Source: Agelas oroides
Taxonomy: Eukaryota > Porifera > Demospongiae > Agelasida > Agelasidae
Direction: 5' to 3'
Length of the DNA stretch: 64,000 bases
NCBI GenBank assembly: GCA_949130485.1
Contig: OX422184.1
Location: forward strand, 23,864,917-23,928,916
Below are positions 1-47,590 of the stretch, piece after piece. Both the position numbers and the translations under genes were made by a program. Under the pieces are notes generated by a model. That model was not told the origin of the DNA. It worked only from the letters and a program-made list of their open reading frames with translations, and ran no database searches. Positions within the stretch are counted from its first letter, which is position 1, and each line of letters starts with the position of its first letter.

Positions 1-2619
1 GAAAGTGACAACATTCTTCTCACGCCAAAATATCACAATGAAAACTTTTCGTCCGAAGATCGTAATCAAGACAGCAAAAGCAGTCATGATGATTCCGAGT
101 GCAATAATTGCATTCTGGAACTCTTGTGCTGCCTGCTGAATAGCAAGGTACGTTATGATAAATGCCACCCAGATCACAACAACTGCAAAAGTGCAAAATG
201 AAATATACTTTGCTTCATTGAAATTGGCAGGATATTTGAAGCTCAATACTCCTAGTATTGTGGCGGCTGCAAGGATTGCTGACTCATATAGTATGGAAAT
301 GATAGCGAAAGGCAGTGGGTTAATAGCACAAGTAACCACAACCTCTGGAGGAGTTGTGACGTTCTTGGAGATTGATCGTTCCTCTTGATGAACACTAGGG
401 ACCTGGAACGCAATAGCAGCTGCAACTATTATCATCTGTACAAGCACAAGCACTAGTGTGAAGATAATCTGGTAGTAGAATTCGGTAAACCTCAGATGAG
501 TTAGGGCGGTTTTATTGAAGAAGATACGAGCAACTCGAACAATTTTAACCAGTAGCGCCCCAAACATGAGTGAAAGAGCTAACCAGAAACCAATGCTTTG
601 TAATACACACACTGCTCCATGCAATGGAGGGGCAAGGTATATGAATGGCAGAATAAAGCTTAGAGTAATCCCGATCAGAAGAATCACCATCTGTTCCCGG
701 CCTGAAGATTTTATCACTGGTGTGTTCCAGTAGATAGCAAAGACCACGGTTACAATAGCTACACCTAGAAGACCAAGAATGGCAAGCAATAGAAGAATAA
801 TTGACCACGCATGATTAAACCTGAGATATATTTTACGTAGTGGTACACAGTAACTGCTGCCTTCAGTGGGGTTGTCTCCCCACGTGAACATTGAGCATGT
901 TTGGCAACTAGTTGCACTGGGGTCATCAGAGTAATCCTGTCCTAGGCAGGGATCACATATGCCACAGCAGGAGTCAGTCAGTCTGTGATACTCACCAAGT
1001 GAACAGCGTCCACATTGAGTGGTGGGGGGCTGGACAACAATGCCTCCTGAACTGGTCACTCCAAACTGGAGAGTCACATCTTCCCAAAGTTTTAAGTTAT
1101 CTGAGTTGGAGCCATTCTGAGTAAGTAAATTTGTCCATATTCCAACTTGCTTGTAACCGTAATGGATAACACCATTGGATATCTCTGCCTGATAGTTCAA
1201 GATTTCATAGTTTCCTGCAGCACTTCCATTATGAAATGTGACTGTATTTCTAGTGAGAGGACTTACGAAGTCAACCTTTTCAAGGTAGGATTGTAGACTT
1301 GAACTGTTCAGCTCCTTCTTTTGACCAGGACAACTCTGATTTTCCCAGGTCCATCCAGATGTGAAATTGCAGTTTTCCTCTAAGAAGTTGTGCAGAGCAT
1401 TAGCAAATGCATACACAGCATCAATTGTTTGTGACACAAAATCACTCTGGGCATAGTCAGATAATTTAGTAAGGTTGTTAACTGGGTTGCAAACACTGCC
1501 ATTACAGGTGTAAGCAGAATGTATTCCCTTAAACCAGTGGTTGCGTCTGTTTGTTTGGACAGTTAGTTGTGAAAAATAGTCATCAAAGAGGGGTACACGT
1601 AGTGCATGTGGTGTGAAACCATAATAGCCTGCCATAGTTTCATTGAACATGTGGGCTAGCGCAAGTCTACGTGCCCACCCATCACTTCCAATCCAAGTGA
1701 GTCTACGATCGGTACGATGAAAAGATGAGTCAGTAACTGCTTGTAGCAACTGTTTTGCATTCTGCTCATGTGCAATGACTACTACAATATTTGTATCTGA
1801 AGCAAGAAGTGTTTCAGCAAGCTCCTGATAATCTCCCATCCTAAAGTCATCTCCAATTTCCTTGTACACATCGATGCAGACATTGTTGGCTTTAGCTTGG
1901 TTTAGAAGCTCTAATGCCAATGACACTCCGTATGCATCTTCAACATAAATGATTGAAATTTCAGTCCAGTTAAAGTGAAGGATTAGATCAATCATTGCTT
2001 GTGCTTGAAACTTATCAGATGGGACTGTGCGATAGAAAAAAGGATACCTCTCCCTGTTGCTAAGCTTGGGAGATGTGGAGCCGAAACTCACCGTGAGAAC
2101 TTGGAACAGTCTTCCCAGATTAGCTACTGGGATGCTCACTCGACTTGCTCCAGGCCCTACTATTCCGATTGTTGTGACTGACGCGTTTGCTGACCCCATA
2201 CTGGTGGATGTGCACTCCTCCACCTCCAGTAGATTGCCCGAAATTATCACGTCGATGGCTTCGTCCAGTCCAATCTTGTCGCTAAAGCACGTATCTCTGA
2301 TGTCAAATCCTAACGTGATGTTGGGCAGCAAGGTTTCGTTCGCGTTGACGGAGTCTATCGCAAACAACATTGCTTCAACCCACTGATCGCGCCGAATATC
2401 GCCGCACCGACCTCCGCTAAAATTTTTGTGTTCGAAGTGTACTGGAATCAACCCTCCTAACACAAAGTCCTTGTTGACCCGGTCTCTGATTCCACTAGTT
2501 GTACCATCTGTGGTGATGAGTTTTTCTGATTCGACTGTGTATCGGAAAGGTGTTGGGGCGACGTGCGCAATTGTTACGAGCATGATAAAGAACAGCGCAA
2601 GGCAATCATGATGCTCCAT
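1..2619 (-). CDS. R1: class C GPCR (mGluR-like), main exon, runs off left edge
   Basis: Reading the minus strand from the ATG at 2619 gives 873 codons without a stop up to the window edge. The protein starts with a hydrophobic signal peptide (about residues 1-20), followed by a Venus-flytrap ligand domain (about 45-480) containing IGSDGWAR, DAYG and RNHWFKGIHSAY. A cysteine-rich linker follows (CGRCSLGEYHR...CDPCLGQDYSDD, about 535-600), then seven membrane segments with the class C signatures TPVIKSSGREQM (TM1-TM2), FKYPANFNEAKYISF (before TM6) and IFGRKVFIVIFW (after TM7). It is a cell-surface receptor that should couple to G proteins; the ligand is unknown but the SDGW element favours an amino-acid-like one. 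By comparison with R2 only some 150 bp of this exon are missing. It is the sister of R2 and looks functional. Confidence 0.93.
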   Translation of the reverse strand, partial: MEHHDCLALFFIMLVTIAHVAPTPFRYTVESEKLITTDGTTSGIRDRVNKDFVLGGLIPVHFEHKNFSGGRCGDIRRDQWVEAMLFAIDSVNANETLLPNITLGFDIRDTCFSDKIGLDEAIDVIISGNLLEVEECTSTSMGSANASVTTIGIVGPGASRVSIPVANLGRLFQVLTVSFGSTSPKLSNRERYPFFYRTVPSDKFQAQAMIDLILHFNWTEISIIYVEDAYGVSLALELLNQAKANNVCIDVYKEIGDDFRMGDYQELAETLLASDTNIVVVIAHEQNAKQLLQAVTDSSFHRTDRRLTWIGSDGWARRLALAHMFNETMAGYYGFTPHALRVPLFDDYFSQLTVQTNRRNHWFKGIHSAYTCNGSVCNPVNNLTKLSDYAQSDFVSQTIDAVYAFANALHNFLEENCNFTSGWTWENQSCPGQKKELNSSSLQSYLEKVDFVSPLTRNTVTFHNGSAAGNYEILNYQAEISNGVIHYGYKQVGIWTNLLTQNGSNSDNLKLWEDVTLQFGVTSSGGIVVQPPTTQCGRCSLGEYHRLTDSCCGICDPCLGQDYSDDPSATSCQTCSMFTWGDNPTEGSSYCVPLRKIYLRFNHAWSIILLLLAILGLLGVAIVTVVFAIYWNTPVIKSSGREQMVILLIGITLSFILPFIYLAPPLHGAVCVLQSIGFWLALSLMFGALLVKIVRVARIFFNKTALTHLRFTEFYYQIIFTLVLVLVQMIIVAAAIAFQVPSVHQEERSISKNVTTPPEVVVTCAINPLPFAIISILYESAILAAATILGVLSFKYPANFNEAKYISFCTFAVVVIWVAFIITYLAIQQAAQEFQNAIIALGIIMTAFAVLITIFGRKVFIVIFWREKNVVTF

Positions 2620-2779
2620 CTTGCACACCCGAAACCCGTTTATGTACCGCCTCAAAGTAAGAAACGCAGCTCGTCTTTGGCGTTTTATCGCTGATGGACT
2701 GGGTTGATTCGTCGTACTACGCCTGTACGTATCAGCACTTTGTAAACTGGACTATATTTCCTGTACCCCAGTTTGCCAG

Positions 2780-2786
2780 CTTTATA
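2780..2786 (-). promoter_or_regulatory. Candidate TATA box of R1
   Basis: The minus strand reads TATAAAG here, 161 bp before the R1 start codon. It directly abuts the end of a 365-bp MITE, so the upstream promoter of R1 would consist of MITE sequence. Motif match only. Confidence 0.35.
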
Positions 2787-3151
2787 AGGGGACACTTCCA
2801 AACTATTATGACGCTAAGGGGGGGAGGGGTTAGGGCCATGACGCTAATTTTAGCTTGAACTTCGAACCATTCTTTTTAATATTAGGCTTTGAGCGTCTAC
2901 ACGTAGCTACACACGTGATGTCGTTGCAAACGACACTCCTTGGCTACAAGCTGAAGAAAGAGGATCACAGTTTGCCTGGTAAGGAGGGGTTTTATATAGA
3001 ATGCCCTACATGTATATCTGCCACTGTCTTAAAGTCCAGGTATGACTATCAGCTACTTTTGCCATGACGCTAAGAGGGGGAGGGGGAGAGGGTCCAAGAC
3101 TTAACGTCATAATGACGCTAATTTTTTAAAAATAGTTTGGAAGTGTCCCCT
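2787..3151. mobile_element. MITE with 21-bp terminal inverted repeats
   Basis: The left end (2787-2807) AGGGGACACTTCCAAACTAT is the reverse complement of the right end (3131-3151). Inside, the motif ATGACGCTAA recurs near both ends, next to G-rich runs. There is no transposase; the 70-aa open frame inside is not convincing. No clear target duplication was seen, so the superfamily is open. Confidence 0.7.
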
Positions 3152-5924
3152 GAACTAACGTTCAGCTTTATAAACTAACATAGGTATACCTCTTCCCTCA
3201 CTCTCTATGTGCTTGAAAAGTCTGTGTGTAGCAAGGCCAAGGTTGGCAAAATCGTGTAACTGCAGTTGTGAAGAACCATTTCAACAACATTATAGAAAGA
3301 GTCAATGTTAAAGCGATCACCCAGCTTACTAATGAGGTGGTCAAGAACTGGAAATTGCACTTGTAGTGAAACCGGTCAGAAAAAATCTCAGGTTTAACGA
3401 TGTTCCTCCAAGCTTGTTTTGGCACATCTTGTTGGTTTTTAGTCTCTTGCACTCTTCCTCAAGACCTCAATCCATTTTTACAATGCAAGCTGCCTTTTGG
3501 ATGAGTTACTGAAAAGCGAGATAGAATATGGAATCTGCATCATATTGCTCACTTCTCAAATTTTACAACATTTCATAATGCTGAGATTCAGCCTGTGTCT
3601 GTCCTGTATATAATATTGTCAGTTGTCATGCAGGTCACAAATAACTCCACTGACTCAGATAAAACACTAATGCAGCTATGTAGTACTTTCACATTGTTGT
3701 TGATGGTTTACTCGAAGCGTATTCTTAAGTTTAATTTTTGTAGTTGTAGTGATGCACATATGCGTCTATATGCCTTGCCATTTGGATATTTTAAACAACC
3801 ATTGCATTTTTTTACCACAGCCTCTAAATTCTAAAAAAAAATTTGTGAAAGGACACATGCATTATAGCTTACAAGCTCATACAAATAGTAACTGCATGGG
3901 TACTTGCACTTTGTCACATTATAGTTTACAACCTAATACAGTAATATTAATAGTAACTGGGTACATAAGCTACATGTGTAACTGTTACTACTATAGTACC
4001 ACAACAAAAGATAGATACAGCAATCTAAGGACAGTATGCACAAGATCTACATGCTACAAGTGACTTTAGTACAAGTATAGAAAAACCATAGAAAAAGAGC
4101 ATGCTAGTCTACTTCTCACAGCACAGTAGTACTACTTCTCAGGGGATCCTGTGGTGAAGATAAGATAGTATAATATTATATACAGTAGGACACACAAAAA
4201 ACCGATCATACATCCGTAATGATGATAGTCCAAGAGTGAAAAAGTAAATCCACAGTAAAATTCTGTATGTGCATGCTGTTAACTTCAACTGGACAATAGT
4301 TGGCTCAGTTCATTGAGCATTCACCGCTAGGAAGGTTTTGTTAATCTAACATTCTGTACCAGTGCGAGCTGACAAGTGTCTTATTAGGGAAAGAACCATT
4401 GCAGCTTGATGGAATTCCGGAGGTGAATTACTACTATGATTCGAATACTACGTAAGCTTAAAACATAATTAGGTCGTGACCTTACGTTAGATTGGATTCA
4501 TCATAAATTCCTGAAATTGAAATTTCTTACATTAAATTGGATCATACGTAGTATTCGAATAATTACGGTATTACTGCTATGAATAATAATCTACCCGCAG
4601 TTTGTTTTTGTAAACTTTGAACTTGATTGTAAGTACATCCCTGCACCTATCAACAAAATCTGTAACAGTCAGTTTACAAACGATGGAAATACAATTTGAG
4701 TTGGGTTGCAGCACTGTTACAGTTGCAGGCACAGACTGTAAGTCTTTTAGAATTCAGAGCCTGTTGCATGTACATGTGTCTGCTTGTTGGAAATCCAAGA
4801 TTGAATGATAAAAAAGGTACTCAACATTCGTACATACACACAGACATGTATATATAGAGCGTTTTTGAATTTGCCATCCATACATTATTTTGTCATGAGC
4901 GGTTGTGGTCGAGTACGAGACCAGACAGGAATCTTCAGGTTGGAACTAGCTATAATAGTAGCTACCAGCAGAAGCAGAAGTACGATGAGAATACTTCCAG
5001 ACTGCTAAAAATTAGAACAAAACTTTTAGCCACATACAAACAGCCTGAACATCATCAAATTAGTTCCAGCACTGCTGCAGCTTCAATTAACATTTAGTAC
5101 TAGCTTGCAACCCAGCTACATTGATGCCACCAATCTTCTTGTACTACACTTCAAAGTTTGACTGATCTGATGTGTCTGCATATGTAACTCTGTGATTTTG
5201 TTGGAACTTGGATCACAGGAGGATCCTTGGTACTGATCAGTTACACACCATCTGGTAGGCAATGTTAATTTTCTGAATTATTATCTGACAATCAGCTGGT
5301 TGATTTAACATGTAGTGAGAACTCACTCAAGCAGAACTAACCATGCCATGCACTTTTTGCAGTGTATGCACCTGTTACTACACATGCATGGTCCACATGG
5401 TTGTGGGCAGCAATTAAGATTAAGATTGGGTTTGTACTTCTAATGTAACTTGTTTACTTGCAGCAGTAGTGTTTTAATTTCCAATTTTTACAATATTTTC
5501 GAACAATAAATATACCTACCACAGAGAGCTAGTAAGCCCCAAATCTGTGAAGCAGTCAGGCTTCATCAAATCCACGAATACAGTCACTTCAAATCAAGTG
5601 TATGGCCTGCTATTTTGACTTGTTACATTGGAAGTGGCCAAGCAATTATGATGTAGAGGCATGTTACGAAGCCTTCATGGAACAAGATCACTTGCACATT
5701 GTAGTAGTGAATCTTCATGACACACTTTAGGAAAAGGCTTGAGGAAGATCGTTCGGATTCATTCCAATGATGACGCAATTACGTATCACCAATTTTGATG
5801 CAAGATTGGAGCAATGCAAATTTACGGTGCCTATGATTTAATTGGAATAGTTGAACCCGTAAGGGCCATCACAGTACATGTACATGGCAGATTTTTAAGT
5901 GACATACTTATACAACTGTGTGAT
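3152..5924. other. R1-R2 intergenic DNA, no gene seen
   Basis: The stretch holds only short chance open frames on both strands. The part at about 3838-4200 resembles 34257-34580, including the shared string GTATGCACAAGATCT, so it is old duplicated flanking DNA of the R1/R2 receptor subfamily, possibly part of the downstream region of R2. Tail exons of R2 should lie somewhere between here and 10157 but I could not recognise them. Confidence 0.5.
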
Positions 5925-40453: not shown

Positions 40454-41353
40454 CAGCTCAGGAAGTGAGAAGGTCAGAAAATGAACTGATCAAGTAGCTT
40501 GTTTTGAGTATGACAACGAACTTGAAATCTCCAATACTGTAGCTAGCTATACCCAACAGTCTGCCCTTCTATGTCAGTATTTCCTGCATGCTTCTAGTAT
40601 GGTTAGTGTTGGAGATCCCACAAAAGTGATTGATCCCTAGCTAAGCCAAAGCCCACAAACTAATTTTTTTTTCTGTTAGCCAACAGTCTGCGCTTTTATT
40701 AACGAAAACAACTCTTTTCTATAGTGAAACAATTAAAAAAAAAAAGAAGATTTAACAATAAACAGCATAATGGGTGACTTTGTGCATAATGGGACTTTGT
40801 GAAAGCATAATGGACTAATTTTGAGCCTAAAGGAATAGCAGAAAAAATATCATGTACGCAGACCTAATAGGCTATAGTTTCCATCTTCTCTCAGTTTGGT
40901 CTGGGAACGAGACTATAAGATTCCATGTGTGACAGCGATCGTGTTACAGTTTAGTCTGCTCTGTATGCATGCCTTTATGCATAACGTCTAAATTTACCTT
41001 TAATTTGGCACGCCTTAATGCCAAATTGGTTACTTTGTTTCATGCCAGTTTTATGGGGCCACACACAGGCCAGCAGTATAGATGTATGGTTATTACATAG
41101 CTACTACTTATGCTAACTTTTCTGGTGAATATGGAAGGATGTAGGGACATCCTGCATACAAGTATGCACATGGACTACAACAAACTTAACAGTACACATG
41201 CAAACTGTAAAATTCACATTGATTTAGCTATAATCAAATGCTCTCTCAGGATTGTCCTGCATTCAAACATTCTTAGTGGACGTGAGAGGGTATAACAATA
41301 TCCACATTCTAGTTGTGTAAGTATATATGCATGTACAGCAATCCCTGAATTAC
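40454..41353. other. R5 first intron, part homologous to R4
   Basis: Aligns with about 22550-23690, including GCATAATGGGTGACTTT and the GAACGAGACTATAAGATTCC region, but lacks the 24-bp minisatellite of R4. No exon seen. Confidence 0.6.
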
Positions 41354-44093
41354 CTTTCATAGTGTCTTGGCCTGCAAACGTCACTGCACTTTGTACTGTC
41401 AGTGCTTCAATTGCAGTTGTACAGTCACTAGTTTTGGTGTATTGAGAGGTGAATTGTCTTTTGTTCTTCTTTGGCCGCAGAAGAACAATGTACAACTTTC
41501 GTCCAAAGATACAGAAGAGTACTGCAAATGCACTCATGATGACAGCAAATGCGATGGTTGCATTCTGTATCTCCCGGGTTGACAGTGTGGCAAAGTAGCT
41601 TGGGATGAAGGCAAGCCAAATCATCAGTAGAGCAAAGGAGCAAAATGCGATGAACTTGGCTTCATTGTAGTTCGCTGGGTACTTAAAGCTCATGACACCG
41701 AGTACACAAGCTGCTATAATGATTAGGGTTTCATAGACCCCCGACAGGACAAATATTGGAATTGGGTCAGAAACACAAGTCACAACAATCTCTGGAAAAT
41801 CATTCATATTTGTGGAGTTTAGTCGCAATTCTCGTTGAATTCCAGGAAGTTGCATGCCTATTGAAGCAAAGACAAGTACCATTTGTCCCAGTACAAGAAG
41901 AAAACTAAAGATGATTTGGTGGTATGCTTCCATGCACCTCGGACGTTTGATTAGGGACTTGTTCTGAAAAACGCGAAACACTCGAAGGATTTTGATCATG
42001 ATTGTTCCAAACATAAGTGAGAAGCAGAACCAAATAGCAACCCTCTGAACAATGCACACACCAAGTGTAGGTGGAGCAACGTAAATGAATACTGAAGCAA
42101 AACTCAGGCCAATTGCAATGACTAGTAGTATCATTTGTTCCCTGCTAGAAGATTTAATGACTGGGGTTTTATAGTACACTCCAAAAACTATTCCAGTCAC
42201 TGCTACTGACAACAGGCCAAGTATTCCCATAATGATGACCACAATTGACCAAGGATCACTAAATTTGAGAAATGTTTCAGCAATAGCTATACATTCATTG
42301 CTACCTTGGAGTGGGTTTTTACCCCACATGTCACCCAGGACAGAGCAGCTATTGCAGCTTGGGGCAAGGTGTTCACTTGAGAAGCTCTGCCCAAGACAAG
42401 GTTCACATATGCTACAGCAGGAGGATGTCACTGGCCTGCGATATTGGCCTGGGAGACAGCGACCACAGTGAGATTCTGGAGGCTCATGAACAACACTTCC
42501 ATTGTGATTACCAAAGTCGAAGGTGCTCACACCAGTAAGATTCAAAGCAGAACCACCAGCACTGTTCCAGGTTCCAACTTTAGTAAAGCCACAACTAGTT
42601 GTACCATTTGCAGTTCAGCATTGATAGTTCCATATATCAAACTGACCTTCCACATGTCCATCAGAGTTAAACTGCACTGTATTTCCTGTCAGTGGAGAAT
42701 GAAATTGCACATCTGCAATGTACTCACGCAGAGACGAGCCATTCAGTTGCCTCTTTTGTCCACTGCAGTGGTTGTCTGTACGGCTCCAAACTGTTGGTTG
42801 GTCACAGTTTTCTAGGAGAAAGCGATCTAAGGCATAGGCAAAGGTGTACACTGCATCGATGGTCAGTGATACAAAGGGATTCTGTCTATAGTAGGCAAAA
42901 CGTGTGATGTTTGAATTTTGATCACAGGCATTTTGGGAATCATTTGTAGACAGTGTATTGTTACAATTAGCATAGTTTGCATAAATTTCAGGGAACCATG
43001 GATTGCATTTATTACTGTGGATTGTCAGCTGTGTCAGATATTCATGGAACTCCTGAACATGTGATGAAAAATAGATAAGTCCATACATCCCCCCAGCAGT
43101 TTCATTAAACCTGCTGGCAACAATAGCTGACTGTAACAACTCGGTTGTTATCCATATGAACCTTCGTTCCGGAGAAATGTCCCTGACTTTCTGCAGAATC
43201 TGCTCTGTATGCTGAGCATGAGTATAAAGAACTACAACATTTGCAGCCGATGCATTCAGTTTCAATGCCAATGTGTGGTAATCATCTTCTAGAAAATCTT
43301 CATCGATTGCGTCTTTAACATCCATGCAAATTTCATTCATTACAGCCTGTTTTTGCAGTTCATCTGTTCCAGCCTGACCATATGCATCATTAGAGTACAC
43401 AGTTGAAATGTGAGTCCAGTTGAACCACAGCATTAGGTCAACCATCACTTTCACTAAAATATTGTCCGGAGAAATTGTCCTATAGAAGTAGGAATACCTG
43501 TCCCTGTTGTTGAGTACAGGGGAAGTGGAAACGTAGCTGACCTGTGGCATTTGAAACAGACGCCCCAGGCCGGCCGAAACCGTGCTTACTTTGCTTGCAT
43601 AGGCTCCTACAATGCCTACAGTGGCGACAGATTCTGATACGTTTCCCCCAGGAAATGTCGTGCAGCTCTCGACAGCCAGATGTTCTCCGGAAATGATCAG
43701 ATCAAGAGCTTCATCCAAGCCAATGTTCTCGCTGTAACAGGTATCGCGTATGTCGTACCCCAACTTCATGCCTCGGAGTAGCTGCGAGTCGGCGTTGATG
43801 ATGTCTAATGAGAATAACATCGCCTCCACCAGCTGTTCAGAACGGATCTCTCCACATTTTCCTCCAGCAGAAGTGGCGTCTTCTGAATGGACGGGGAACA
43901 GTCCGCCAATAACAAAGTCCTTGTCAACGCGACTGGCCGCACCGCGTATTCTTCCATCGGTGCTCCTGATCACTTCAGACTCTTCCTCGTATCGATACGT
44001 CCTGGCATCAGCAGCGTGGGTTTTTGGACTGGGAGCAGTCAAAATTACAAACAGAAAGACGAGTGAGTGTAATTTTCGTAGTACACGAGTCAT
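41354..44093 (-). CDS. R5: class C GPCR (mGluR-like), main exon, one in-frame TGA
   Basis: ATG at 44093 opens a signal peptide (MTRVLRKLHSLVFLFVILTA). Flytrap domain about residues 50-490 (VATVGIVGAYASKVS, NDAYGQAG, NPWFPEIYANYANC), cysteine linker CGRCLPGQYRRPVTSSCC, seven membrane segments with TPVIKSSSREQM, FKYPANYNEAKFIAF and FGRKLYIVLL. The exon ends ATGAAAG/GTAATT, donor in phase 1. Codon 493 (42615-42617) is TGA and lies in a 15-nt in-frame insertion (42603-42617) absent from R6; otherwise the frame is open for 913 codons. In place of the SDGW of glutamate receptors the pocket strand reads WITTELLQSA. Whether R5 is dead, polymorphic or read through is open. Confidence 0.85.
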
Positions 44094-44640
44094 TGTTTAA
44101 ACTTAATTAAGAGAATGGCTTCTCGCGCCGGCCGTCTTTGTTATAAGAAATGTATATAGATGTTCTCCACATACCCCAGTTATATTTATGCCTGTAAATG
44201 GACCACTTCAGATGAGTACACGGTTAGTTTGCCAAGCCATAAACCCGTGGCACAACCTCTGTGCTGGACACCCTGAATAATCAATGGACCACATCTCCCT
44301 GAACCATGGGATAGGCTAGTCCTGGGCACGAGACAGAAGTTCACAAAAAGAGTTATTGTACACAATTGTGCCATTTTGTACTGCATGCCCATACTGCAGT
44401 ACGGCATGCAAACCCTTTACCTCTGGCCAATAGTGCCCGAGTTAGCTTCCAGATAGTCTCACAAGCCAGACCGCTTTCAGTATGCGGCATGCTGAGGGAA
44501 GGGTCTAGAGACTTAGGACCACTTTACATGAATCTCTAGTGAAATTTCCAATGAAATTGCAAAACGCACAATTCGAGCTGTTTAGTCACGTGCACAGTCA
44601 GTCAGTCCTCGTACCAGATCAGAGTAGGCAGAATAGAGGG
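44094..44640. other. R5 upstream region and start of repeat block
   Basis: 44094-44160 is the R5 promoter flank; TATAAG on the plus strand at 44142-44147 (minus CTTATAACAAAG) aligns with the TATA-like site of R6. A MITE-like sequence (TAGTCTCACAAGCCAGACC...GGGTCTAGAGACTTA, about 44455-44530) has an inverted relative at 47150-47246. Confidence 0.5.
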
Positions 44641-45884
44641 TGTGCACATCTACATACGTCCACTGTAGGGATTCTGTAGACCAGATTGTACAAAAACATT
44701 TAGCGTACATGCATAACACAAAGGTTAAAGTAACAGAAGACATGAAGAGATTGCCTGGTTTTTACTGGATGCCTAAACTACACAAAAATCCCTATGGACA
44801 TCGCTTTATAGCAGCTTCTGCCTCCTGCACAACCAAACCTCTATCTAAGCTGCTTACCCACTGTCTCCAGCTGATACTCAAACATTACAAGGAATATTGC
44901 AAAGGTATGGAAAGAAGAACCGGGGTAAACTGCTTTTGGGTCATTAACAACTCCACTGAAGTGACTAATACCCTAGACAAGTTGAGACATGCAAGAGCAT
45001 TAGATAGCTTTGATTTCAGCACACTCTATACTAACATCCCCCATAGTCAACTCAAAACACGCATGGAAGAGTTAATTAGAAATGCATACAATACCAGAGA
45101 TGCCTCCCACATGGCCTTAGGGAAAGATTATGCTTACTGGACTTCCAGACCTGTAGCTAATACCCGTAACTTAACAGTGAACCAGTTAGTTGAGATGTTC
45201 AATTTCTTGATAGATAACATATACATCCAGATAGGATCAGCTGTCTACCAACAAACAATTAGCATCCCTATGGGCACTGATTGTGCTCCATTAGTTGCAG
45301 ATCTATTTCTTTTCTCCTATGAATTTGAGTTTATGAAATCCCTAATCCAGACTGACCTCTCTGTAGCATGCAGCCAAATTTAGTAATACTTGCAGATATA
45401 TTGATGACTTGCTTACACTTAACAACCCTGATTTTCAAGCATGCATATAGGCCAAATTTACCCCCCAGAATTAGAGCTTAAGAAAACTACAGAGAGCCAT
45501 GACAGCTGTTCCTACCTGGATCTTAACATTAAGGTCCTGAAAGGTAAGTTTTGCACAGACTTGTATGATAAGAGGGATACCTTCAGCTTTTCAATAGTCA
45601 ATTTTCCACACATGGATAGCAACATACCCTCAAAACCTGCATATATATACGGAGTAGTAATTTCACAGTTAGTGAGGATATGTTGTAATTACCAAGATTT
45701 TGCTTACAGATCTAAACTACTCACAACCAGATTACTTAGACAGGGATACATATACCAAAAACTCTGTAGCACCTACAAGACCTTTGTGCATCGCTACCCC
45801 AGGACTTTACAGAAGTACGGGAGGTGCCTGAAAAACATTATTACTGAATGCATTGCCTTACCTATACTGTTTAACACAGCCTGA
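44640..45884 (+). mobile_element. Penelope-like retroelement, reverse transcriptase region, broken
   Basis: Two plus-strand pieces (44640-45383 and 45441-45884) carry reverse transcriptase features of Penelope-like elements: GFYWMPKLHKNPYGHRFIAA, SFDFSTLYTNIPH, MGTDCAPLVADLFLFSYEFE, the catalytic YIDD in the short gap between them (about 45398-45409), and SYLDLNIKVLKGKF...NIPSKPAYIYG. The frame is broken about twice close to YIDD, so the copy is inactive. No GIY-YIG endonuclease was seen before 45884, so it is either an endonuclease-lacking type or a truncated copy. A hammerhead ribozyme lies 0.3 kb downstream, which fits the family. Confidence 0.8.
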
Positions 45885-46092
45885 ACATGCAGTTAGCACA
45901 TTTATACACACACAGTCTTTAAACACGCACTGTTTGCCTCACACTGTTTGCATTGTGCCTTACTAGCCTCCGGTACCTCGAGCTCCAGCGCCTCTGTATG
46001 CGCGCGCGCCCGCACGCACGCGTTTAACGTTTACGCACCGATAGCACGTGACGATCAATGATTACGATCGCTACACAAGATCTTCGAAAGAA

Positions 46093-46139
46093 AGACAGCT
46101 GCACGAAGAACAGCTGCACGAAGAACAGCTGCACGAAGA
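46093..46139 (+). repeat. 15-bp tandem repeat, three units
   Basis: AGCTGCACGAAGAAC repeats three times, enclosed by the inverted pair ATCTTCGAAAG / CTTTCGAAGAT at about 46080-46090 and 46147-46157. Confidence 0.8.
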
Positions 46140-46198
46140 GACGGTGCTTTCGAAGATCGGAGTCTCTACCGACTTTTGAATAAGGCCAGCCACCTGAC

Positions 46199-46280
46199 TG
46201 CATTCTGTGCATGATATGGCAGTCCCCATCTCCCGGTCACCCCAGCGCAGCTGATGAGGCCTGGTATTGGCCGAAACGCG
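46199..46280 (+). ncRNA. Type I hammerhead ribozyme of the Penelope-like element
   Basis: The catalytic core is complete: CTGATGA at 46251-46257, stem II GGCC/GGCC (46258-46261 with 46269-46272) closed by a 7-nt loop, then GAAAC at 46273-46277. Stem I pairs CTGTGC (46205-46210) with GCGCAG (46245-46250), six pairs including one G-U, with a long loop. Stem III is short (46199-46203 with 46276-46280) and has one A-C mismatch; the expected cleavage site is after T46204. Hammerhead motifs with minimal stem III are known from the terminal repeats of Penelope-like elements. After the core the phrase GCGTCCTGTGCAG resembles the start of a second, tandem copy that is not present. The weak stem III makes self-cleavage uncertain. 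Confidence 0.72.
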
Positions 46281-47590
46281 TCCTGTGCAGTGGGTGCCTT
46301 TTTTTGCATAACATCTAGGCCTGTTTTATAAGGGAGATGTGGTTCGTTGATTGTTCATACACGTCATCACACCATAGCAACCGTTGCTATGCCGCCATCT
46401 TGATAGGCACCATTGCCGGTTTTTAATGGGACTTAAGTACTAGCGCGTCGAACTCCCCGCGCTAGCAACGATCCTACAAGTAGCATCCCTTTCTTGTACA
46501 GGTATGTTGACTGTCATGACTAGCTCTCTGCATACTATAAAGTTGAAGCTAAATGCATGCTCCGTACCTCGAAGCGAGCTCGTAGAATAGGCCTCACCAT
46601 ACATTTTCCCTATTCATTGCCTCTCAAAATGGCGGCACGTATACGGTAGTATGCGGAAATATGCAGAACTTGCCTACCGGGTGACTTGCCCTCTATAGGC
46701 AACTACAGCCGATAAGTCAGTTTTGGACGCTCTCATCAAGTCGGGGTGTGAGTTTAGAGCACGACAACAAGAGATAGTAGTGAACTTTGTGAAAGGTTGA
46801 GATATAGTATTCATGTCTCCCCCCCACTGGTAGCGAGGAAACTTGCTATTTGGTGCTTCCGTGGAAGTATACAAACATCGTAAATTTACCCCGTTATACA
46901 TCCGTTACGCGGATTATTTTATATGAGCTTCCGTATTTGACGTACGTTTCCTATCCACCCAGCGTACTATATTATCCATGCGTGGACCTATGCTCGTCTG
47001 AGATGCCGCCCGAAACCAAGCTCGATCATCGCTCAAACAGACAGCACAAGCAGCGTGGTAAATAGCACTGGCAGCAGCTATCTAGCAGGGGTGACTATGA
47101 ATACTTGTGTGCTTTACACGTGATCGATTGGCATTGCAGACGTTCACGTTAAGTGATCCTAAGTCTCCAGACCCTTCCCACCGCGTACCGCATACTGAAA
47201 GCATTCGGTGCTGTGGAACGGAAAGGGTCTGGCTTGCGAGACTAGCTTCCGGATAAGTTTATCGCCACAGCTGCGTGTTTTTGAGTTAGTACCGATATCC
47301 GCATGATATGGGGGCCCTAATACACTAGTGATATGGGGCCTATATGGGGCCCCAGAACTCTTGACCTTTCAGTGATTTGGGGCCCCTCTGTAAAGCTATA
47401 AGTACAAGACAACAACGTACTTGTCAGACCAGTAGAATCAGATTCTGGAAGTAATTTCAGACAATCTTTTTGTCTACATGTGCAGAGTTCGTCTTGTAGG
47501 TCGCTAAATATATTTGCTTTCGATTTGGGGCCTGGGGGGTCCCTATATCACTAGTGATATGGGGCTGGGGGGCATGTAGTTACCTAAGTA
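46281..47590. other. Spacer with short inverted repeats, no gene
   Basis: Contains the inverted relative of the 44455-44530 sequence (47150-47246) and a pair of CACTAGTGATATGGGGC phrases at about 47321-47337 and 47550-47566 that may bound a small element. No coding region recognised. Confidence 0.45.

Follow-up and report, generated by a model that had tools for sequence, protein, structure and literature searches.

A probable dimer-forming type I hammerhead in the terminal region of a permuted Penelope-like element of the sponge Agelas oroides

The locus and its element

The stretch of Agelas oroides DNA analyzed here (the window, 64,000 nucleotides of contig OX422184.1) contains the remains of a Penelope-like element (PLE) with one hammerhead motif close to its 3' end. 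An earlier note, made from the sequence alone, had placed this motif 0.3 kb downstream of a reverse transcriptase (RT) region; the strand is identical, as it said, and the distance from the RT-like coding sequence to the hammerhead is about 0.4 kb. The features of the locus, all on the plus strand, are as follows.

44647 to 46358, plus strand: Penelope-like element copy, 5'-truncated and degenerate (blastn to unit positions 1893 to 3558 of the tandem locus L041, 91.7% identity)
44647 to 45881, plus strand: reverse transcriptase remains with no intact frame (open stretches 44637 to 45383 and 45432 to 45884)
46200 to 46211, plus strand: upstream look-alike of the cleavage strand (GCATTCTGTGCA; TGCATTCTGTGC at 46199 to 46210), used by the type III fold; CTGCATTCTGTGCA retained by 32 of 39 copies
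46245 to 46250, plus strand: hammerhead stem I, 5' strand GCGCAG (sequence; pairing counted over 39 copies)
46251 to 46257, plus strand: hammerhead core CTGATGA (sequence; shuffle test)
46258 to 46272, plus strand: hammerhead stem-loop II, GGCC-TGGTATT-GGCC (sequence and pair listing)
46273 to 46282, plus strand: GAAA, palindromic half-stem III ACGCGT (46276 to 46281), and the C at the cleavage site; predicted cut after 46282
46283 to 46288, plus strand: hammerhead stem I, 3' strand CTGTGC (CTGCGC in 37 of 39 copies, from the 39-copy count)
46283 to 46358, plus strand: tail from the predicted cut to the element 3' end, 76 nt here and 72 nt in 28 of 38 loci

A class C GPCR-like gene with ANF_receptor and 7tm_3 domains occupies two adjoining open stretches of the minus strand at 41214 to 44096.

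The window copy lacks the first half of the element's unit. When compared by tblastn to the 1012-amino-acid open reading frame (ORF) of the family, it covered residues 596 to 1010 at 89% identity with 8 internal stops. The two RT pieces matched genomic copies at 97% and 90% identity, and a Pfam search with those two window pieces alone returned no match. In intact copies, a 1012-codon frame starts approximately 150 nt 3' of the predicted cut and encodes a GIY-YIG endonuclease domain (aa 148 to 237, 24.7 bits, over the cutoff). In an intact relative, RVT_1 matched aa 652 to 862 with an E value of 2.8e-5 and 24.4 bits, under the Pfam cutoff of 29.6, and from its motifs we take this RT to be of the PLE type. 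Among the matches listed, 6 of 48 extended from residue 1 to 1012 without a stop. The family thus combines RT and GIY-YIG endonuclease in one ORF with 5' truncation and partial tandems bearing pseudo-LTRs, all of which are criteria for PLEs. Its domain order is permuted, with GIY-YIG N-terminal to the RT, and this is the order of the Chlamys and Naiad elements, permuted PLEs reportedly described by Craig in 2021. The likeness to those elements comes from domain order, not from a tree.

Two sequence details of the element 3' region can be added. At 46076 to 46165 of the window, an inverted repeat (GATCTTCGAAAG / CTTTCGAAGATC) flanks 15-bp tandem repeats of CAGCTGCACGAAGAA, and the copy at L039 has one 15-bp repeat CAGCTGCACGAAGAA fewer.

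Fold of the motif and pairing between two copies

Read directly from the sequence, the invariant core CUGANGA ... GAAA encloses stem II exactly where the earlier note had found it, with CTGATGA at 46251 to 46257, GAAAC at 46273 to 46277, and a 4-bp stem formed by GGCC at 46258 to 46261 with GGCC at 46269 to 46272. An NUH cleavage triplet, the canonical GUC, follows at 46280 to 46282, adjacent to a stem I strand. The 32 nt from 46251 to 46282 occurred once in the 64-kb window at up to 3 mismatches, with an expectation of 0.00 from 100 shuffles, and the single-strand folding energy of the motif was ordinary (z of −0.28). No Rfam family reached its gathering score in the window, which formally is the outcome that was proposed as grounds for abandoning the hammerhead. 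The best subthreshold match, Hammerhead_HH9 (46235 to 46305, plus strand, 20.4 bits versus a cutoff of 52, E value of 0.017), falls in the type I register, and we infer that Rfam models miss the motif because an intramolecular stem III is absent. No PDB relatives of the motif were found by sequence search at an E value of 0.01.

We prefer to read the motif as a minimal type I hammerhead, with stem I formed by 46245 to 46250 and 46283 to 46288, stem II by 46258 to 46261 and 46269 to 46272, and GUC as the triplet. From the hammerhead consensus, this fold predicts a cut after 46282. Stem I (GCGCAG with CTGTGC) has 6 standard pairs at the window locus. In 38 of 39 distinct genomic copies all 6 pairs are standard, and 37 read a perfectly paired CTGCGC; most of these copies were picked by a pattern fixing part of the cleavage strand, so the count is not independent. 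The bounds, A-C mismatch, and cut of the earlier reading correspond to a type III hammerhead, in which the upstream TGCATTCTGTGC supplies both stem III and stem I, cleavage occurs in cis, and the predicted cut falls at 46204/46205. In favor of this fold, stem I pairs fully with the upstream CTGTGC, and type III stem III has 4 of 5 standard pairs, with the upstream half-site string retained in 32 of 39 copies. Against this fold, its A-C mismatch adjoins the cleavage site and, the string being identical, is common to those 32 copies; the sampled copies have, partly by selection, a GUC triplet downstream together with its stem I; and the form reported for PLEs in the available portions of PMC7761336 and PMC6155905 is minimal type I. 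Two points decided against taking the type III fold, with its cut at 46205, as the main reading: the mismatch that adjoins its cleavage site and the superior fit of the downstream strand. Our preference for type I, a judgement and not a measurement, is based on the canonical triplet, the complete stem I, and the type III mismatch beside the cleavage site. The earlier fold is probably wrong, and a cis-acting type III ribozyme at this locus is very unlikely.

Several other expectations change with the type I register. The A-C mismatch in stem III belongs to the rejected fold, and GCGTCCTGTGCAG, once taken for the start of the next tandem copy, is the cleavage site and stem I strand of the ribozyme itself. 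A terminal-repeat boundary had also been proposed here; the locus has one hammerhead and its element ends at 46358, so there is no tandem boundary.

Stem III does not form within one strand of the minimal motif, where ACGCGT between GAA and C would leave a 2-nt loop. This hexamer is a self-complementary palindrome that allows the reduced stem III to pair between two copies. Because ACGCGT is too short for self-closure, two copies should pair. The active double-hammerhead fold was calculated at −35.1 kcal/mol against −35.6 for the most stable dimer, a difference of 0.5, and the best monomer fold was −14.9, or −29.8 at best for two monomers, under energy rules that ignore tertiary contacts of the hammerhead core. 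Neither optimum is the active fold, because the GAUG of the core is paired with CGUC in monomer and dimer alike.

Small PLE hammerheads studied by Lunse, Weinberg, and Breaker in 2017 reportedly cleave as dimers. The motif described here has the same core, a strongly reduced stem III, a PLE location, and, as inferred from the fold, a need for two copies. It shows no motif difference from that type; as stem III it has the exact palindrome ACGCGT, and its cleavage is predicted. Minimal type I hammerheads in PLE pseudo-LTRs, tandem in partial-tandem loci, were described by Cervera and de la Pena in 2014, according to the text available from PMC7761336 and PMC6155905. The A. oroides motif is alike in form, pseudo-LTR location, and tandem arrangement, and its host element differs from those PLEs, as far as these excerpts describe them, in having the endonuclease ahead of the RT. 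As excerpted, PMC7761336 also states that minimal type I hammerheads of PLEs may self-cleave as dimers. Taken with the element described above, the sequence makes it probable that the motif is a hammerhead of the minimal type I, dimer-forming kind, located in the pseudo-LTR of a GIY-YIG/RT Penelope-like retrotransposon with the endonuclease before the RT. Two such hammerheads, most readily both in one partial-tandem transcript, would pair via ACGCGT and be cut after GUC. The window copy is dead and has a single hammerhead; any activity it has would therefore depend on pairing with a second transcript.

Genomic copies, tandem loci, and insertion ends

The pattern GCAGCTGATGAGGCC-N4..9-GGCCGAAACGCGTCCTG had 175 exact matches in the genome and CTGATGA-N10..26-GAAACGCGTC had 233, compared to 0 for each reversed control. 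A 301-base query around the motif likewise identified copies genome-wide (40 scored of 2952 candidates). Thirty loci selected by pattern, the first of the 175 by position (L009 to L038, contigs C1 and C2), all aligned to the 3' end of one PLE family, with the hammerhead inside the PLE. This sample bears out the proposal that the hammerhead lies in a PLE terminal (pseudo-LTR) region, and none of the 30 places the motif in an unrelated context, which had been named as a possible refutation. RT code was present within the locus (up to 1.5 kb upstream) in 15 of the 30, and the remaining loci are 5'-truncated copies that break off at various upstream points. A genome pattern for other minimal-form hammerhead families gave 5 matches versus 2 in the control, 4 of them near-variants of the PLE hammerhead family. 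Because the copies are young and alike, conservation of the hammerhead among them says little about selection.

Each 3.55-kb unit contains one hammerhead, and partial-tandem loci contain two. The tandem copies anticipated beside other PLEs were found at L039, L040, and L041, where two hammerheads lie one unit apart (3553, 3558, and 3558 bp, respectively), and at a fourth locus on contig C11; an older, short tandem is on C3. In the tandem layout, a 5'-truncated upstream unit is joined seamlessly to a full unit. Upstream and downstream parts differed at 1 of 414 positions in L039 (which also has a common deletion), 1 of 2280 in L040, 0 of 2064 in L041, and 0 of 476 in C11. In three of the four tandems (L039, L041, and C11) the partner was closer than the other compared copies. 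For example, the next-best copy for L041 had 3 differences in 2064, and the C11 parts had 4 differences each from L041, the only other copy compared, over 476 or 1130 bases. The upstream part of L040 matches another locus, L045, without a difference over 2280 bases, and variant sharing within the tandem is uninformative there. A separate old copy (G000:C4:5760581-5760971) has the 5' region of the unit repeated at approximately 54-bp steps.

The 3' end of the element is nearly constant. It is separated from the predicted cut by 72 nt in 28 of 38 loci and by 72 to 76 nt in 34; in the remaining 4 the end string is altered. By alignment, 36 of 38 loci end at unit position 3558, and one of these 36, L027, is an internal tandem junction. 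L001, L002, and L003 have their downstream flank in common and may not be independent. One of the three is the window copy, in which the common sequence past the element 3' end lies at 46359 to 46685 of the window, and part of this sequence also occurs in L035, away from the element's end; candidate sources are insertion into one repeat family, duplication, and 3' carry-over. In the 3' flanks of 36 distinct copies, purines and pyrimidines take turns (position 1 is R in 35 copies, position 2 is Y in 31, position 3 is R in 27, and position 4 is Y in 31), which suggests insertion into TGCA/CA-type DNA. Microhomology of the 3' flank with the next unit was considered as a sign of a circular or tandem template and rejected; the R/Y alternation points to target preference instead.

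At the 5' side, nine copies extend into the first 26 bases of the unit (27 matches and 23 candidates, every candidate scored), and eight pass the unit start, by 1, 7, 54, 155, 419, 1130, 2064, and 2280 nt. With the upstream predicted cut lying 72 nt beyond the unit start, the five longest of these eight cross the upstream hammerhead. None of the eight copies passing the unit start begins within 10 nt of the upstream cut, and the start of L047 is 18 nt after it. A Kolmogorov-Smirnov comparison of the eight extensions with a constant drop-off of 0.74 per kb, in which the two shortest were entered as 0.5 and 5 nt where the walk gives 1 and 7, yielded a p value of 0.13, so that the two copies stopping at the unit start are no proven pileup. 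This rate was derived from the numbers of copies that extend to aa 600 (34) and to aa 1 (9). The 34 are drawn from 48 rows after omission of those with less than ~93% identity, starts beyond aa 600, or a location on C4, and two of the 34 are upstream parts of tandems.

Which RNA was copied

A constant 3' end past the ribozyme indicates that the copied RNA extended beyond the cut, and long copies through the upstream ribozyme indicate that the RNA was continuous there. Together, these ends exclude, for the copies concerned, a template that had been trimmed at the ribozyme without resealing. Reverse transcription would start internally, on RNA that is uncut or re-ligated at the ribozyme. Judged from the insertion ends, either a linear multimer RNA or a re-ligated circle remains as the template.

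The linear template would be RNA transcribed from a tandem. The circular template is speculative and, on balance, unlikely. In that scheme, the hammerhead would make the template of retrotransposition: the two hammerheads of a partial-tandem transcript would pair via ACGCGT and excise exactly one 3.55-kb unit that is ligated to a circle, and RT would start internally, 72 nt past the sealed cut, sometimes for more than one round; the need for two copies would act as a sensor passing only tandem, complete loci. Seamless unit junctions, the hammerhead crossings by five of the eight longest copies, variants common to units within three of four tandems, and the beginnings of two of eight copies, which lie 1 and 7 nt beyond the internal start once a full unit has been passed, are all consistent with a circle. 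If it is true, repeated rounds alone would make the pseudo-LTR partial tandems. In the literature covered, a circular template is stated for retrozymes (PMC7229834, in the portion available) and not for PLEs, and the proposal may be in print.

Like the PLE family, the metazoan retrozymes of PMC7229834, in the sections available, have type I hammerheads, dimer action in some cases, and tandem copies; they differ in being non-coding. A second hammerhead family in the A. oroides genome, unrelated to the PLE family and retrozyme-like, gave 29 genome matches to RF00163 over the cutoff, several of them in arrays of 606-bp units that are partly head-to-head (L062, at G000:C3:504700-506800, and L063, L064, and L065). 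Its stem III palindrome is ACCGCGGT, and its best dimer fold is a double hammerhead. One array ends approximately 100 nt past the predicted cut, beside TGCATACATA-like DNA, resembling PLE copies, and the family may be moved by a PLE. Comparison of the PLE tail and unit with this family revealed no similarity beyond chance.

A point of comparison for an internal start is the Poseidon PLE of Anolis (PAc; Frangieh 2024, PMC11167929). In the available text of that study, reverse transcription starts internally, 111 to 118 bp into the ORF, and the hammerhead cut lies 26 bp into the ORF; hammerhead cleavage was seen only with protein, hammerhead mutants still inserted in vitro, and 0 RNA-seq reads ended at the cut. 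From these stated positions, PAc shares with the A. oroides element a short distance from the hammerhead to the internal RT start (85 to 92 nt in PAc, 72 nt here), along with partial tandems. As described there, PAc differs in having a C-terminal GIY-YIG and a hammerhead that overlaps the ORF start, whereas here GIY-YIG is N-terminal and the frame begins ~150 nt after the cut.

The in vitro insertion of the lizard PLE without need of its hammerhead (PMC11167929, from the same text) favors a functionless relic, a hammerhead carried in the terminal repeat and copied along with the element, as do the breakage of stem II in many genomic copies and the youth of the family. A relic would leave unexplained the conservation of minimal hammerheads reported across PLEs in the available parts of PMC7761336 and PMC6155905, and we regard it as rather improbable. 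Trimming of the RNA 5' end before copying, as by HDV-like ribozymes of R2-type elements, would fit the hammerhead upstream of the ORF in tandem loci and a role in print for other retroelements (PMC7761336, as excerpted), and is scarcely plausible given that, past the unit start, five of eight copies run through the upstream hammerhead and 0 of 8 begin within 10 nt of the cut. Trimming of the template should have left full-length copies whose 5' ends coincide with the cut, a genomic footprint that these copies do not show.

The motif belongs to a type that has been published before: minimal type I hammerheads of PLE pseudo-LTRs and their dimer action are already in print (PMC7761336 and PMC6155905, in the portions available). 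The useful part here is the data set of copy ends. The family is young, includes intact ORFs and partial tandems, and offers a few hundred hammerheads in long contigs, which makes its insertion ends readable as records of the copied RNA. In the available text of PMC7761336, a 2020 review, the role of minimal hammerheads in PLEs is called a mystery. For this family, the insertion ends argue against 5'-end trimming and leave an uncut multimer or a circle. A circle, if true, would explain why a dimer-type ribozyme is retained, why variants are common to the units of a tandem, and why partial tandems exist.
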